Below the pieces are notes generated by a model. It was not told the origin of the DNA and did no database searches. It saw only the letters and a program-made list of their open reading frames with translations. Below, one piece after another: positions 8,939-60,427 of a stretch of DNA of 64,000 nt. Numbering within the stretch: position 1 is the stretch's first letter; the number at the start of each line of letters is the position of its first letter. This DNA comes from an uncultured Spirochaetia bacterium. GTDB taxonomy: Bacteria > Spirochaetota > Spirochaetia > CAKZLE01. The DNA is taken from the NCBI GenBank assembly GCA_937125225.1, contig CAKZLE010000002.1, positions 1-64,000 of the forward strand, written 5' to 3'. The translations under genes were made by a program, and so were the position numbers.

Positions 8939-9811
8939 CTAGTCGGCAAGTACTTTTATGGGGATTACCTTTACATTGGGTATTGAACGTATATCTTTGA
9001 AGAGTTTCTCACTCAATATAGCATCATCAGTGAGGGCTACAAGAGAAGAACCACTTCCCGATATCAGGATTGAATCAAACCCTGACTCATCAAGAATCCT
9101 CTCCATCTCACGATATTGAGGATGTCTTTCATTGAGAACGGGAGTAAACGAATTGAAAAATTTCCAAGATCTCACCGGGCTTTGATACATCCGCTCAAGT
9201 TCACTTCCATTGAGAGATCTCTCAGCCCCCTGCCCATTCGCTCTTAATTCATCAAGAAGTGAGAATGCGATGGGGGTCGAGACTCCGAAAGCAGGAAGAA
9301 CGATAACTCCTTTAAGATCTTCTCTAGGAGAAAGCTCTTTGAGGCATTCCCCTCTTCCGGTCACTAATGAGGCAGGCCCACCGAGAAAGAAGGGAACATC
9401 GCTTCCGACCTCCGCCCCGATCTCAAATAAGCTCTCTACTGCGAGAGGATGGCCGGTGAGGGACTGGAGCCCCATAAGGACCGATGCTGCATCTGAGGAG
9501 CCTCCTCCAAGGCCTGCAGTCACAGGGATCTGCTTGTCACATCGAATATCTATATCTAGATTGATATGTGTAGCAATACAGAATCGTCTGCACGCCTGAT
9601 ACATAGTATTGCTCTTGACCGGGATTTCGGATCCATCATCTATCTTACAGAGAAATTCCCTAGAAGGATGAATGGTCATGTCGATCGTATCAAAGAGATT
9701 CACTTTCTGAAAGATCGAGGTTAGCTCATGAAAGCCATCTGATCTCTTGTCATGAATATCAAGATGTATATTGATCTTTGCAGGTGCTTTCATACATATG
9801 TGTGAGTTCAT
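8939..9811 (-). CDS. ispE: 4-diphosphocytidyl-2-C-methyl-D-erythritol kinase
   Basis: A 290-residue GHMP kinase with the ATP-binding loop PVTAGLGGGSSDAA at 96-109, an N-terminal KAPAKINIHLDI strand, and a C-terminal ISGSGSSLVAL glycine-rich motif. It phosphorylates CDP-methylerythritol in the MEP route to isoprenoids, so this organism uses the non-mevalonate pathway. It lies upstream of spoVG with a 79-base gap. The start at 9811 has only a weak ribosome site; Met7 is an alternative. Confidence 0.95.
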   Translation of the reverse strand: MNSHICMKAPAKINIHLDIHDKRSDGFHELTSIFQKVNLFDTIDMTIHPSREFLCKIDDGSEIPVKSNTMYQACRRFCIATHINLDIDIRCDKQIPVTAGLGGGSSDAASVLMGLQSLTGHPLAVESLFEIGAEVGSDVPFFLGGPASLVTGRGECLKELSPREDLKGVIVLPAFGVSTPIAFSLLDELRANGQGAERSLNGSELERMYQSPVRSWKFFNSFTPVLNERHPQYREMERILDESGFDSILISGSGSSLVALTDDAILSEKLFKDIRSIPNVKVIPIKVLAD

Positions 9812-9865: not shown

Positions 9866-9895
9866 TTGACAATTCATGCTTCCAATAGGTATGGT
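9866..9895 (+). promoter_or_regulatory. Promoter for the small acidic protein gene
   Basis: TTGACA at 9866-9871 and TATGGT at 9890-9895 are 18 bases apart. Transcription would begin near 9902, after the first in-frame ATGs at 9876 and 9891. This supports the later start chosen for the gene. Confidence 0.6.
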
Positions 9896-9929
9896 GTTAA
9901 CAGTCATAAATGTACAGGAGGGATGGACA

Positions 9930-10187
9930 TTGTTAGACGAACTCGAAAACGAAGATTCATTTGATGACGAAGAACTGTTTGATGAGATAGAGATCCAAGA
10001 GGACCGACCGGTGTATGATGAGGCCTTCATGGATGAAGATCTTCTTGAAGATCCTTTTGATGACAGCATTACTGATGAGTATGATGAAGGGAATCTTAAC
10101 GAAGAGGGCTTCCATATTGAGAAGAACGACTTTGCTGAAGAGACCAATATCTACGGGATAGAGGAATCCTTTGATTTTGAAGATTAG
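9930..10187 (+). CDS. Small, extremely acidic protein of unknown function
   Basis: Unrecognised. From the TTG at 9930 the product is 85 residues, of which 38 are Asp or Glu, with a single Arg and a single Lys. The start is supported by AGGAGGG at 9916-9922, seven bases upstream. The frame is open further back to ATG 9876, but that codon lies between the -35 and -10 elements. An ATG at 9923 is out of frame, abuts the ribosome site, and gives only 13 codons. The gene has its own promoter and strong terminator and stands alone between minus-strand genes, so it is clearly expressed as a unit. The charge pattern resembles nucleic-acid mimics or RNA-polymerase accessory proteins, but that is only a suggestion. 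Confidence 0.7.
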   Translation: MLDELENEDSFDDEELFDEIEIQEDRPVYDEAFMDEDLLEDPFDDSITDEYDEGNLNEEGFHIEKNDFAEETNIYGIEESFDFED

Positions 10188-10196
10188 AAACTATCA

Positions 10197-10229
10197 ACAG
10201 AGACTGTATTGAACAGTCTCTGTTTTTTT
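10197..10229 (+). terminator. Rho-independent terminator after the acidic protein gene
   Basis: A perfect 11-bp stem, ACAGAGACTGT / ACAGTCTCTGT, with loop ATTGA, is followed by seven T on the plus strand. It begins 10 bases after the stop codon. Confidence 0.92.
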
Positions 10230-10234
10230 CTTTT

Positions 10235-11620
10235 CTAAAAGAATATCCTTGAGTTTGAAAAAGAGGCATTCATCCCAGAGCTCTCACTATTCCCCAACTG
10301 TCCGCTACCATTCTTACCAGCACCATAGACAGAATCTCCTACAATCCAAATCAGAGTATGTTGATAACCAGCATCTACTTTAATGACATCACCTCTAACC
10401 TCTCTCCAAGTAGCGATGTAACTGTTCTGACTGAGACCAATACCCAGTTTGCCATATGTACCATTCGTTCCAGTACACCAGAGTGTATTATCATTCTTGA
10501 TAGCCATCGAATAATTCATACCAGATGAAACCTCTTTGACATCTTCCAGAGCCTTCTCAGGTAAAGTCCTATAAGAAAAAGCATTGGTATCATTTCCAAG
10601 TTCACCCAATGAGGAGGAACCCATTGCCCATAACTCATCATTGGTCGTGATGAACATCGTATGTGTCAATCCTGCTGAGACTGCCCGAACTCCGGATGTG
10701 ATCAATGTCGGAATTCGTCTTTCAACTGTATCGCCAAGACCGAGATTACCATTATTATTCTCTCCAAAGCCATAGAGCGCGCCATTATTCGTGATAAACA
10801 AGGTTTCCTGACTTCCAGCTGATACAGCGGCGACCCCATCAGCAATATGAGTAAAAGTATGTGTATTATCTGTAGAATTGTTTCCGAGTCTATAATTCGA
10901 CCCATTCCCAGTTCCATAGAGCTTCCCGTCTGAATCTATGACCATCGTATGATAATAACCACAATCGACAGCAATTACACCACTACGAACCTTCACCGGC
11001 AGGTTGACTTCACTATAGTCACCAGTACCTAACTGACCATAAGAGTTACCACCAGTAGCATAGAGGTCCCCATTATCCTTGAGAATCATCGTATGATGAT
11101 GGCCTGCAGAGATAGCTTTGACGCCTTCCATAATCTTGATCGGATGAGTTTCATTGCGAGTTGTACCAGTACCGAGCTGACCATTACCATTCTGACCCGC
11201 GGTGTACAAAGATCCATCTGATTTGAGGAACATACTATAGAAACCTCCAGCAGATACGCAACGGATGCCAGGATCCAAAGATCCCCAAAGAGCATACAAG
11301 GTGATATTTGATGAAAGAATAAAGATATTCTCAGCATACTTATAGGTGGTTCCATCACCTGTGGGAGAGGTGTTCCAACCTAAGAAACCATACCCGTCTC
11401 GCCTAAGCATACCAGTATTATCTTTTACCTGTGCATTTTCATATCGTTCATAAGAGCCTCCATCGTACGGAACTGTACCAGAGTTCGCTCCGTTGGGGGC
11501 ATACGTTACCGTATAATCACCTGAACCATTAGCCGAACCATCATCTACACCAGGTAACGGACACCCATAGAACAATAGGCTCATGATAACCATCAAAATC
11601 AGTGCTCTTATGTTTCGCAT
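10235..11620 (-). CDS. RCC1-repeat lipoprotein with an InlB-type repeat
   Basis: A 461-residue exported lipoprotein: signal peptide with lipobox FYGC (Cys20). Residues ~36-112 form a Listeria/Bacteroides (InlB B-repeat-like) module, with DGYGFLGWNT and ITLYALWG. Seven RCC1/BNR-type repeats follow, each carrying a G-x-N-x-x-G-x-L-G-type turn (for example GQNGNGQLGTG and GENNNGNLGLG), which should fold as a seven-bladed beta-propeller. Location is the periplasm or cell surface and the role is unknown, perhaps protein binding. TAAGGA precedes the ATG at 11620. It is flanked by unrelated transcription units and is probably transcribed alone. Confidence 0.85.
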   Translation of the reverse strand: MRNIRALILMVIMSLLFYGCPLPGVDDGSANGSGDYTVTYAPNGANSGTVPYDGGSYERYENAQVKDNTGMLRRDGYGFLGWNTSPTGDGTTYKYAENIFILSSNITLYALWGSLDPGIRCVSAGGFYSMFLKSDGSLYTAGQNGNGQLGTGTTRNETHPIKIMEGVKAISAGHHHTMILKDNGDLYATGGNSYGQLGTGDYSEVNLPVKVRSGVIAVDCGYYHTMVIDSDGKLYGTGNGSNYRLGNNSTDNTHTFTHIADGVAAVSAGSQETLFITNNGALYGFGENNNGNLGLGDTVERRIPTLITSGVRAVSAGLTHTMFITTNDELWAMGSSSLGELGNDTNAFSYRTLPEKALEDVKEVSSGMNYSMAIKNDNTLWCTGTNGTYGKLGIGLSQNSYIATWREVRGDVIKVDAGYQHTLIWIVGDSVYGAGKNGSGQLGNSESSGMNASFSNSRIFF

Positions 11621-11823: not shown

Positions 11824-12180
11824 TTATGCTGAGATATCTACTACTTTTCCTAGATACCAGAGTTTTTCCAGTTCATAGAATGATCGCATCTCTTCTGTCA
11901 TGACATTGATGACAATATCTCCACAATCAACAAGTTCCCATCCATTCTCAGAGATCTTCTTGTGTCTGTGATTGACCTGCATCTCGAGATCAACAAGCTC
12001 ACCCTGGATCTCTTTAACAAGACCCCTCATATGCCCCAGACTCGTTACAGTCGCTATGATGAAATAGCTAGTCCAACTGCTTACCTCAGAGACATCGATA
12101 CATACGACATCCCCACCTTTATGATCCTGTACAAAAGCAGCCAACTGCCTTACTTTACTACCAATCTCGTCATCCCCCAT
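11824..12180 (-). CDS. rsfS: Ribosome silencing factor RsfS
   Basis: A 118-residue RsfS/Iojap protein, of standard length. Conserved features are the D-V-S-x-x-S-x-W-T-S-Y-F strand (DVSEVSSWTSYFIIAT) and WELVDCGDIVINVM. It binds ribosomal protein uL14 and blocks subunit joining under starvation. AAGG precedes the ATG. It is the last gene of the rplU operon, and its association with nadD is typical across bacteria. Confidence 0.93.
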   Translation of the reverse strand: MGDDEIGSKVRQLAAFVQDHKGGDVVCIDVSEVSSWTSYFIIATVTSLGHMRGLVKEIQGELVDLEMQVNHRHKKISENGWELVDCGDIVINVMTEEMRSFYELEKLWYLGKVVDISA

Positions 12181-38104: not shown

Positions 38105-38921
38105 CTCCACCCCTTTTATCGATCGAATTCATATTACCCATGCTATACCCACCCAGATCACATGTGACAAAACGATATCCGAACCCCTTCAAGGCCCTAT
38201 CGGTCTGTCCCATCGTATCACTAGAGAGAAATCTAACCATATCCCCGGCGGCAAGCTCGATCCTTGCGAGCTCTCCATGAGTCCGTACTCTGACGGCAGG
38301 AAACCCGAGTTCATGGAGAAACACCTCTGCAGACTCGATTCTTCTCAAGGCTTCAGGAGTCACCCTCGTATCATGAGGGATCCTCGTCAGAAGACAGGAA
38401 TAGGCTGGTTTGTCGGCAAAGGGAAGCTCCCACTCTGCACTAATCTCCCTGATCTCACTTTTCGTGAAACCAAGTTCAAGGAGAGGACTCTTCACCTTCA
38501 ACTCTCTCAAGGCCCGCATCCCAGGACGGTGATCACCAGTATCATCTGCATTCGTACCATCCATAAGGATCTCTGCACCCCAACTCTCAGCCTCTTTCTT
38601 GATCAGGTTGAAGAGTTCTCTTTTACAGAGATAACATCGATCTTCAGGATTATCGAGGATTGATTCAGGGATTGGGTATGAGAGGATATGATGTTCTACC
38701 TCTTTGATCGTTGATACATAGGCTGAAGCCTCGGCTATCTCCCAATCCGGGACATAGGGAGGATCTACTGATACTGCGAGTATCGGGGAGAGCCCCGCCC
38801 TCACAAGCGCTGTAAGTAAAAAAGAGCTGTCAACACCCCCAGAATAGGCAATAGCACATCTGTCGTAGGAGGATGCCCAGAGCTTGAGTCTATCGAGTTT
38901 ATCTAGGAGTTCAGCTCTCAT
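38094..38921 (-). CDS. larE: LarE, ATP-dependent sacrificial sulfur transferase
   Basis: A 275-residue PP-loop enzyme with SGGVDSS at 27-33 and CYLCK at 96-100. The sacrificial cysteine is Cys176 (AYSCLLTRIP), the same number as the characterised Lactobacillus plantarum LarE. It adenylates a carboxylate of the pyridinium precursor and donates the cysteine sulfur, leaving dehydroalanine. It may instead be a cluster type, but no extra cysteine trio is seen near the C-terminus. The start overlaps the larC stop by one base (TGATG). Confidence 0.95.
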   Translation of the reverse strand: MRAELLDKLDRLKLWASSYDRCAIAYSGGVDSSFLLTALVRAGLSPILAVSVDPPYVPDWEIAEASAYVSTIKEVEHHILSYPIPESILDNPEDRCYLCKRELFNLIKKEAESWGAEILMDGTNADDTGDHRPGMRALRELKVKSPLLELGFTKSEIREISAEWELPFADKPAYSCLLTRIPHDTRVTPEALRRIESAEVFLHELGFPAVRVRTHGELARIELAAGDMVRFLSSDTMGQTDRALKGFGYRFVTCDLGGYSMGNMNSIDKRGGDDE

Positions 38922-40255
38922 CAGGAGAGCTCCTCATAGAGTTTTTTTAAGGAGATCCCTGTCTCTAATGCGATCCTTCTCATATCATCAGCCTCAGGTT
39001 TCGATGAAACGACCTCACCTTCATAGGTACTACTCTTCACTCTCACCTCACCATAGGAGGTCTGCTTTACCGATATTGTTCTCTCTAACATAGTCTGTTC
39101 TACCGGATATTCTCTCACTCCTGCCGTAGAAGTCTCAGTGAATAGTATCTTATAGATCTTTTCTTTATTGGCAGTAGTACTCATGACAGACAGGAGATTC
39201 CCAGGTCTTCCTTTCTTCATGATGACTGGGGTGATATAGACCTCTTTAGCTCCGGCTGACCACAGTCTATCAGTGACATAGCTGTAGAGTTCCGGGCTCA
39301 TATCATCGATATTCGTCTCGATCATGACCACACTCTCTCTAGAATTCTCTTCGATCTCTCCAAGATAGACTCTCAACACATTGGGAATCTCTGTATCTCG
39401 TGTACCTATCCCATACCCGACGGTATCAAAGGTAAATCCGGTAGTGCTCACGAACTCATCTACGACAGATGCGAGAATGGCAGCACCTGTTGGAGTCGTC
39501 ATCTCCTTCATCACGGCTCCAGACTTCGTTGGTATACCTTTGAGTATCTCGACTGTAGCAGGCGCCGGCACAGGGATCTTACCATGGGCACACTGTACGA
39601 AGCCTCCACCAAGCTCAGGAGAAGTCGATATGATCCTATCAGGTTTGAGATAATCGATTGCTACAGCTGCAGCTATGATATCTACGATAGAATCAACAGC
39701 ACCGACTTCGTGAAAATGAACCTCATCGACCGGTTTGTTGTGAACCTTAGCCTCTGCCTCAGCGACAAAGAGGAACATCTTCAAAGAGAGTTCCTTCACA
39801 TGGTCATTGAGATGACTTGATTCTATGATATCCCTGATTACCGCAAAGTTACGATGTTCATGATCACCATGAGAATGCTCGGTATGGTGATGATGACCAT
39901 GGTCATGCCCTTCGTGTTCATGATGTTCATGATGTTCATGATGTTCATGATGTTCATGATGCTCATGGTTATGTTCATGGTTATGTTCATGGTTATGTTC
40001 ATGGTTGTGTTCATGAGTATGCTCTTCATGTTCATGGTGTTGGTGATCATGGTGCTCGGAATCAAGATGAACATGGGCTTGAGTCCCGGTTATCCCCTTT
40101 CTCATAGCGGTAGTGCACTCTAAACTCCAACCTGCCACATGAAGAGAGGAAAGAGCCTTTCTGATATGATCTTCAGGTACCCCAAGATCCACCATCGCTC
40201 CAATATGCATATCTCCACTTATCCCGGCAAAGGGATCATACATCAATACTTTCAT
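38921..40255 (-). CDS. larC: LarC, nickel-inserting cyclometallase, full length with a His-rich insert
   Basis: A 444-residue LarC in one uninterrupted frame; in L. plantarum LarC is made by a programmed frameshift of larC1/larC2. LarC uses CTP and inserts nickel into the dithio-pyridinium nucleotide. Family features: YDPFAGISGDM at the start, DEVHFHEVGAVDSIVD, VPVPAPATVEIL, ETNIDDMSPE and VIMKKGRPG. Between about residues 61 and 134 is a low-complexity run with 39 histidines, alternating with Glu, Asn and Asp, which should bind or store nickel. It overlaps the TsaA-FmdE gene by four bases (ATGA). Confidence 0.96.
   Translation of the reverse strand: MKVLMYDPFAGISGDMHIGAMVDLGVPEDHIRKALSSLHVAGWSLECTTAMRKGITGTQAHVHLDSEHHDHQHHEHEEHTHEHNHEHNHEHNHEHNHEHHEHHEHHEHHEHHEHEGHDHGHHHHTEHSHGDHEHRNFAVIRDIIESSHLNDHVKELSLKMFLFVAEAEAKVHNKPVDEVHFHEVGAVDSIVDIIAAAVAIDYLKPDRIISTSPELGGGFVQCAHGKIPVPAPATVEILKGIPTKSGAVMKEMTTPTGAAILASVVDEFVSTTGFTFDTVGYGIGTRDTEIPNVLRVYLGEIEENSRESVVMIETNIDDMSPELYSYVTDRLWSAGAKEVYITPVIMKKGRPGNLLSVMSTTANKEKIYKILFTETSTAGVREYPVEQTMLERTISVKQTSYGEVRVKSSTYEGEVVSSKPEADDMRRIALETGISLKKLYEELS
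39917..40015. repeat. In-frame DNA repeats coding the LarC His-rich stretch
   Basis: Two adjacent tandem blocks. One is a 12-base unit coding His-Glu-His-Asn about four times (residues ~81-96); the other is a 9-base unit coding His-His-Glu about five times (residues ~99-113). Both keep the larC frame. Unit identity is nearly perfect, suggesting recent slippage expansion. Confidence 0.9.
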
Positions 40256-58651: not shown

Positions 58652-60427
58652 ATGAAGAGATTAAGATTGATAAGTATCTTATTACTTACACTAGTACTGT
58701 CATTCAGCTTTATAGCTTGTAGTGCTAAAGAAGAGGCTGCACCTGTAGTCGAAAAGACGACTGAAGTCAAGACTGCTGTTGTTGAGAAGGCTCCAGAACC
58801 TGTAGTGGATCCTGTTGTCGAGGCAGCAAATGCTTTCTTTGCAAATAAACCAGATGACAGTTATCTGATCAAAGAGACTGCTTTTGTCGACATGGTAAAA
58901 GCTGGTGAAGAACCCTTCATCCTAGATATCAGATCAGCTGCTGACTATGAAGCTGGACACGTAATGGGTGCTTTCAATGCTCCTTGGGGTGCGACTGCGA
59001 TCCCAGCAGCCTTGAGTCAACTCCCTGTAGACCAGACCGTCTATGTATATTGTGTAAGTGGTCAGACTGCAGGTCAGACTGTCGCATTGCTCAACGTAGC
59101 TGGTTTCGATGCAAAATCAGTACGATACGGTTATAAACTCGGAATATCTAAAGTAGAGGGAGTCGAAGAGGTCATTGAGACTACTCCTAACTTCCTTGAA
59201 GATCTTGGGACTGAGATCGACCCAGCTATTGAAGCTGCGATCGTAGATTACTATGCAACACTGAATGCTGATGAGTCTACCAAGAGTAATATCATCGCTG
59301 CTTCAGCTGCTAAAGACAATCTAGATGCTTCTGAGGGAGAAATCGTTGTTGTCTCTATTAGAAAAGCAAGTGACTTCGAAGACAAACACATCGAAGGTGC
59401 TATCAACATCCCTTACGGAAAAGGTATGCAGGAGAACTTCTCACAACTACCTAAAGACAAACAACTGTATGTATACTGCTATAGTGGACAAACAGCTGGT
59501 CAGACCGTTGCTATCCTGAAACTCCTTGGTTATGATGCTGCATCAGTCAAGAGTGGTTTTGGAACAGGTATGAGTGGTGGTGGATGGAATAACGAAGGTC
59601 TTCCTATCATACAGACCAACGTTGTTGAAGAGGCTGCAAATGCATACTTCGCAGAAAAAGCCGCTGATAACAATATCATCAAAGAGGATGCGTTCCTAGC
59701 AAAGATCGAAGATGGAGAAGAACTCTTCATCCTTGATATCAGAAAAGCTTCGGACTATGAGGCAGGACACATCATCGGTGCTTATAGTGCTCCTTGGGGT
59801 CCAACTGCTATTCCTGCTGTACTTGAGAATCTACCTACAGACCAGACAGTATATGTCTATTGTGTAAGTGGCCAGACTGCAGGACAGACAGTCGCACTTC
59901 TCAATGTAGCTGGTATTGAAGCAAAATCCGTACGATATGGATTCAAACTTGGAATCTCAAAAGTCGAAGGCTATGAAGATTTCGTAGTTACTGAACCCTA
60001 TGAGATGGAAGAGCTTGGAAATACTATCGATCCACAGATCGAAGCTGCGATCGTCGATTATTATGCTACGCTGAATGAGGATGAGAGAACCAAGAGTAAC
60101 ATCATCTCTGCAGAGGCTGCAAAAGATCTTCTCGATGCATCTGAAGGTGAGATCGTTCTTGTATCGATCAGACAACCTGCTGACTATGCTGCAGGACATA
60201 TCGAAGGTGCTATCAATATTCCTTGGGCACAGGGTATGCAGACAAGTTTTGAGCAACTTCCTAAAGATCAGCAGATCCTTCTCTACTGTTATAGTGGACA
60301 GACTGCAGGTCAGACCGTCGCTATCATGAAACTTCTTGGATATGATGTCGCATCAATCAAGAGTGGTTTTGGAACCGGCATGAGTGGTGGTGGATGGAAC
60401 AACGAAGGTTTCCCTGTTGTTCAGTAG
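58652..60427 (+). CDS. Four-domain rhodanese lipoprotein
   Basis: A 591-residue lipoprotein: lipobox FIAC (Cys23), then an Ala/Glu/Val/Pro linker (~25-55), then four rhodanese domains. All four keep an active cysteine, at 134, 276, 404 and 546, in alternating loops CVSGQTAGQ and CYSGQTAGQ. The spacing shows an exact A-B-A-B duplication of 270 residues. Domains B end in a GMSGGGWNNEG loop. It is anchored extracytoplasmically and should carry up to four persulfides. It is the last gene of the operon; a strong terminator follows. AAGGAG precedes the ATG. Confidence 0.95.
   Translation: MKRLRLISILLLTLVLSFSFIACSAKEEAAPVVEKTTEVKTAVVEKAPEPVVDPVVEAANAFFANKPDDSYLIKETAFVDMVKAGEEPFILDIRSAADYEAGHVMGAFNAPWGATAIPAALSQLPVDQTVYVYCVSGQTAGQTVALLNVAGFDAKSVRYGYKLGISKVEGVEEVIETTPNFLEDLGTEIDPAIEAAIVDYYATLNADESTKSNIIAASAAKDNLDASEGEIVVVSIRKASDFEDKHIEGAINIPYGKGMQENFSQLPKDKQLYVYCYSGQTAGQTVAILKLLGYDAASVKSGFGTGMSGGGWNNEGLPIIQTNVVEEAANAYFAEKAADNNIIKEDAFLAKIEDGEELFILDIRKASDYEAGHIIGAYSAPWGPTAIPAVLENLPTDQTVYVYCVSGQTAGQTVALLNVAGIEAKSVRYGFKLGISKVEGYEDFVVTEPYEMEELGNTIDPQIEAAIVDYYATLNEDERTKSNIISAEAAKDLLDASEGEIVLVSIRQPADYAAGHIEGAINIPWAQGMQTSFEQLPKDQQILLYCYSGQTAGQTVAIMKLLGYDVASIKSGFGTGMSGGGWNNEGFPVVQ
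58811..60424 (+). repeat. 810-bp tandem internal duplication in the four-domain rhodanese gene
   Basis: Two copies of about 810 bp lie in frame, boundary near 59620. Protein landmarks recur exactly 270 residues apart. The two copies have diverged at many third positions, so it is not brand new. Confidence 0.9.

Follow-up and report, generated by a model that had tools for sequence, protein, structure and literature searches.

The window, a 64,000-nucleotide stretch of DNA from an uncultured Spirochaetia bacterium, contains a small monocistronic gene on the + strand between genes that both lie on the minus strand. The features of the locus are listed below.

9866..9895, + strand: promoter-like site, TTGACA (9866-9871) and TATGGT (9890-9895) with an 18-nt spacer, 10/12 matches
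9916..9922, + strand: Shine-Dalgarno sequence AGGAGGG, 7 nt 5' of the TTG
9930..10187, + strand: CDS of a hyperacidic protein of 85 aa, TTG start, stop at 10185-10187; supported by orthologues and codon-position bias
10068..10121, + strand: codons of the subfamily motif ITDEYDEGNLNEEGFHIE (alignment A4), which reads ITDEYDE..LNEEGF.IE in relatives
10196..10234, + strand: intrinsic-terminator-like hairpin with a 12-bp stem (10196-10224), then the T run TTTTTCTTTT
8939..9811, minus strand: ispE, the divergent neighbor upstream of the acidic gene
10235..11620, minus strand: RCC1-repeat lipoprotein-like gene between the acidic gene and rsfS, convergent with the acidic gene
11824..12180, minus strand: rsfS (ribosome silencing factor), the conserved convergent neighbor in the class

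The promoter, ribosome site, TTG start, and terminator that a first-pass annotation had described as an independent transcription unit are all present at 9866-10234, and its account of an extremely charged product encoded on the strand opposite to the neighbors was borne out. The protein contains 38 Asp or Glu residues out of 85 (17 D and 21 E), one Lys, and one Arg, for a net charge of about -36, and its local acidity is the highest among the 421 stop-free frames of at least 50 aa in the window (0.52 D/E over 50 aa; the runner-up reaches 0.36). An alternative in-frame ATG at 9876 gives a longer ORF but sits 5' of the -10 hexamer, which makes TTG 9930 the better start; the copy in a sister genus aligns from an identical TTG-TTA (LLD...) start. 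TTGACA is also present upstream of the acidic gene in loci L002, L003, L004, and L083, and 84 of the 122 acidic genes have an upstream promoter score of at least 10/12 (8.8% in shuffles). Since the opposite strand at the same loci is also rich in strong promoters (at least 10/12 in 59/122), we take these scores as supportive only.

Beyond rsfS, the window contains an HD-domain gene, a cytidylyltransferase-like gene (nadD by context), and obg. The RCC1-repeat gene also bears List_Bact_rpt, and in the sister genus it was not seen between rsfS and the acidic gene. Elsewhere in the window, positions 38921-40255 (minus strand) encode a protein containing a long stretch of His/Glu-rich repeats (NHEHNHEHHEHHEH...), and positions 58652-60427 (+ strand) encode a protein that, judged by eye, consists of tandem rhodanese-like repeats in two nearly duplicate halves.

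The gene is not the orphan that it had been taken for. Comparison of the window protein with 60 genomes yielded three convincing orthologues besides itself (G001, G029, and G003; E 9e-16 to 1e-10), all of them divergent from ispE in related genera; 12 further matches were weak (E 0.02 to 0.5), most of them in long frames. Between the window and a sister-genus sequence that is probably the named counterpart of G001 (L137, JAIPFY010000011.1, Spirochaetia bacterium Tobar13m-G40), the 85 aligned codons differ 17, 13, and 46 times at positions 1, 2, and 3, a third-position bias which argues that the ORF is coding and constrained. The profile A4, consisting of seven members of the window clade, matches 8 of 196 class genomes at one place apiece, namely the seven training members and one held-out genome (G072), and a comparison of coordinates with the rsfS search placed all 8 matches at the acidic-gene locus. 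Sequence similarity of the window protein is clear within families f1, f3, and f17 and undetectable to other subfamilies.

Comparable genes throughout much of the class were recognized by position and composition, in a survey anchored on rsfS, which was located in 187 of 198 class genomes. We examined 90 class loci, comprising the 30 best-scoring and 60 chosen, mostly one per genus, from the rsfS matches listed. Because ORF calling from the first start overlooked genes (G032/L240), it was replaced by an acidity test, which required a stretch of 50 aa free of stops, at least 36% of it D/E, oriented convergently with rsfS and ending no more than 700 nt from the rsfS stop. Of the class loci, 87 were testable (3 others were cut off) and 55 contained such a stretch, as did 65 of 77 testable named loci (of 80) and a single one of 44 loci belonging to the phylum's other classes. 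Control placements in the class loci gave 1/87 on the same strand and 0/87 upstream of rsfS. The sole positive outside the class, L263, comes from the end of an open frame of 531 aa, only just reaches the 0.36 threshold, and is probably a chance occurrence. The acidity test additionally recovered L102, L104, and L120 (families f9 and f41). An earlier, stricter ORF rule placed the acidic gene in 63 of 98 genomes and 31 of 39 families, a count that leaves out the window genome, where rsfS lies outside the gene's locus. Treponema parvum, T. porcinum, and T. socranskii are among the named carriers.

Under the stricter rule, the gene was undetected beside rsfS in 10/10 f8, 2/2 f19, 7/9 f11, and 7/12 f24 genomes, and the failure to detect it there in several lineages, such as f8 and f19, implies that it is dispensable. 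Displaced copies were sought in eight f24 genomes without the gene beside rsfS, one of them of 1.1 Mb, and none were found in a search whose limited sensitivity is seen in the recovery of three of four controls (G149 was missed).

Synteny with ispE, proposed in the first-pass annotation as a check, holds in the window clade and in 65 of the 120 loci whose far neighbor was called, rsfS being the steadier neighbor in a comparison biased towards it by the rsfS-anchored survey. A better test is provided by genomes in which ispE and rsfS lie apart (G035, G005, and G028), where the acidic gene goes with rsfS. In the window, the order and strands relative to rsfS are as in the class, but the RCC1-like gene intervenes and rsfS is 1.6 kb away. 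The acidic gene is a translated-looking, conserved gene that stands alone at the rsfS-ispE locus in a large part of the Spirochaetia, neither orphan nor narrow; the earlier suggestion of lineage specificity is correct in the wide sense of a gene of this class, given the single probable chance occurrence elsewhere, and incorrect in any narrow one.

Of the 63 acidic ORFs collected, 43 overlap rsfS tail to tail by at least 12 nt, and in 18 there is no overlap. The commonest stop offset is -21 (22/63), with the stop of the acidic gene inside rsfS. A Ser-rich RsfS tail accompanies 38 of the 43 overlapping pairs, 1 of the 18 nonoverlapping pairs, and none of the 44 loci in other classes. The SSKSS-type Ser-rich RsfS C termini (class loci L047 to L136) appear to have arisen as a side effect of the antisense overlap, and illustrate how an overlap of two gene tails can reshape the end of an unrelated protein. 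The C-terminal motif of the acidic protein (LDYDDFDE-like) is retained in 7 of the 18 nonoverlapping cases and is therefore selected as protein. Downstream of rsfS in the Treponema-type loci L141, L145 to L148, and L153, the divergent ispE is preceded by a perfect TTGACA/TATAAT promoter ending only a few bases short of the start codon, suggesting that the ispE mRNA is leaderless there.

Among 28 pairs listed, dN/dS is 0.03 to 0.28 in the 15 close pairs with dS above 0; 12 are saturated and 1 has a dS of 0. Across 102 sequences, the family has a median length of 98.5 aa and a median charge of -48, and D and E make up 56% of core residues. In a set of 31 family representatives, aromatic residues recur with a periodicity that peaks at 100 degrees per residue, with a z of about 10 relative to block shuffles, a value that does not translate into a probability because the representatives share ancestry. 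This periodicity is compatible with an acidic chain that forms an amphipathic helix, aromatic along one face. The heptad [FY]x3[FY]x2[FY]x3[FYL] occurs in 15/31 representatives (shuffle mean, 1.0) and the strict C-terminal motif in 20/31 (shuffle, 0.76); neither is therefore universal, and the window protein has neither in its strict form. Together, purifying selection, aromatic periodicity, and a C-terminal motif kept without overlap indicate a real protein with putative partner-binding motifs.

Motifs differ among subfamilies: the window clade is marked by the motif at 10068..10121, the Treponema set by EPYDD.E.EDGY, and the A5 set by an N-terminal YDDNFDDYENDFDDDFDDF plus a C-terminal DYDDGLDYDDFDE. 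The A5 profile matches 18 of 196 class genomes once each, 10 of these matches being absent from the sequences used to build it, and by comparison of coordinates all 18 adjoin rsfS in convergent orientation; the match in G097 carries an internal stop. Profile absence is weak evidence, since A5 missed genomes in which the anchored test finds the gene, as well as G022 and G050, both in its training set. Comparison by hhalign of the window subfamily (A4) or the Treponema set (A2) with the heptad-bearing A5 gave probabilities below 2%, and the joining of the window clade and the Treponema set with the A5 family rests on synteny (position and orientation) and composition.

No match above cutoff was found for the window protein in Pfam, where six relatives also had none, or in NCBIfam, PHROGs, and PDB sequences. 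Its only sub-threshold Pfam match, to SART-1, was rejected, and Rfam scores for CsrB-like (16.4 against a gathering threshold of 71) and SCARNA4 (21.6 against 60) were so far below threshold that we treated them as chance. AlphaFold, from a shallow alignment of 10, gave a pLDDT of 58.6 and no secondary structure. Literature searches found nothing on a hyperacidic rsfS-linked family. Small disordered polyanions are a known kind of protein, and this locus-bound family appears to be undescribed within the literature searched.

A DNA-mimic or polymerase-associated role, as put forward in the first-pass annotation, remains the leading idea by analogy. Our tentative reading (probability of roughly 0.4) is that the acidic protein would be a free-standing polyanionic mimic or competitor of nucleic acids, resembling the acidic C-terminal region (CTR) of the delta subunit of RNA polymerase (RNAP). 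The protein alone would be disordered; short aromatic-faced helical segments and the C-terminal aromatic-acidic motif would fold onto a basic, nucleic-acid-binding candidate partner, and the rest of the polyanionic chain would compete with DNA or RNA on that partner. The outcome would be the freeing or recycling of a nucleic-acid-binding machine, either core RNAP or, given the rsfS next door, the ribosome, with nucleoid protein as a further candidate target. If the rsfS adjacency has a function, it would favor the ribosome over RNAP. It is a long shot that a class-wide disordered polyanion, forming a pair with RsfS through their convergent, overlapping genes, would strip or shield the nucleic-acid-binding surfaces of ribosomes or RNAP at growth stop; if this were true, translation silencing and machine recycling would be set at one locus.

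Other roles for such a chain have to be weighed. Acidic-aromatic stretches act in eukaryotic ribosomal-protein and histone chaperones, and an acidic, aromatic-punctuated, probably disordered chain might likewise escort free basic proteins by binding ribosomal or HU-like nucleoid proteins before assembly. The conserved neighbor is a ribosome factor, and excerpts of one study report that Treponema pallidum RsfA binds L14 (PMC3400551), both in line with a chaperone; however, the adjacency is convergent rather than cotranscribed and no profile or PDB match was found, and we consider a chaperone unlikely, if plausible. The composition of the family, more than half D and E, would also suit a general polyanion that buffers cations (Mg/Ca) or charge and has no specific partner, but buffering needs neither conserved specific motifs nor a helical spacing of aromatics, and this role seems improbable.

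The arrangement of the locus allows two further explanations. Convergent and often overlapping 3' ends would make the transcripts of the acidic gene and rsfS mutually antisense, so that expression could be coupled whatever the protein does. The frequency of overlaps of at least 12 nt and the recurrent -21 offset speak for such a regulatory pairing, but overlap is lacking in 18/63 pairs, a whole gene intervenes in the window, gene order could persist passively through overlap alone, and selection at the protein level is clear from dN/dS; we regard it as a rather poor prospect. That the frame is not a gene, being antisense to the Ser-rich rsfS tail or a product of chance, would agree with the way in which Ser-rich tails track overlap (38/43 against 1/18, and 0/44 in other classes). 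Against this stand the persistence of the frame without overlap, with the C-terminal motif in 7/18 cases, dN/dS well below 1, the codon-position differences, and the near absence of the frame from the 44 other-class loci, and this explanation is scarcely credible.

Conservation of the acidic gene extends through much of a class whose members include pathogens as well as gut symbionts; the gene keeps to one locus, adjoining a ribosome silencing gene that is nearly universal, and its motifs are constrained. Low-complexity filters hide small hyperacidic proteins, and genes of this kind are easily missed.

A polyanionic nucleic-acid competitor of the proposed type can be compared with three known systems. 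The SSB acidic C-terminal tail is the tail of a folded protein and ends in Phe; an acidic-aromatic C-terminal tip is common to both, whereas in the present family acidity extends over the entire protein, and the tip typically ends in Asp or Glu. Known DNA-mimic proteins of the DMP19 type are folded. Neisseria DMP19 is described, in excerpts of PMC5722371, as a DNA mimic that competes with DNA for the histone-like HU protein. Strong negative charge is shared with DMP19, but the window protein has no predicted fold, and AlphaFold gave no globular structure with phosphate-like charge spacing. The delta CTR of Bacillus RNAP (residues 91-173, net charge -47) explores the main channel of the polymerase and competes with nucleic acids, and in excess it displaces RNA or DNA from RNAP, according to excerpts of PMC7749165. 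Both are disordered (by prediction in the window protein, a polyanionic region of about 80 aa) and polyanionic, with about 83 to 85 residues and charges of -47 in delta and about -36 in the window. Unlike delta (RpoE), the acidic protein stands alone at another locus without an HARE-HTH N-terminal anchor, and in part of the class it has aromatic heptads. The delta HARE-HTH domain (PF05066) had no match in the window protein or the window genome; it was found in 4 of 41 genomes searched, with four of five matches in frames of 309 to 328 aa. The likeness to the delta CTR and the failure to find delta in the window genome therefore lead us to favor a stand-alone polyanionic competitor, and the family offers a test case for either the function of the delta acidic tail as a separate protein or a new ribosome-linked factor.
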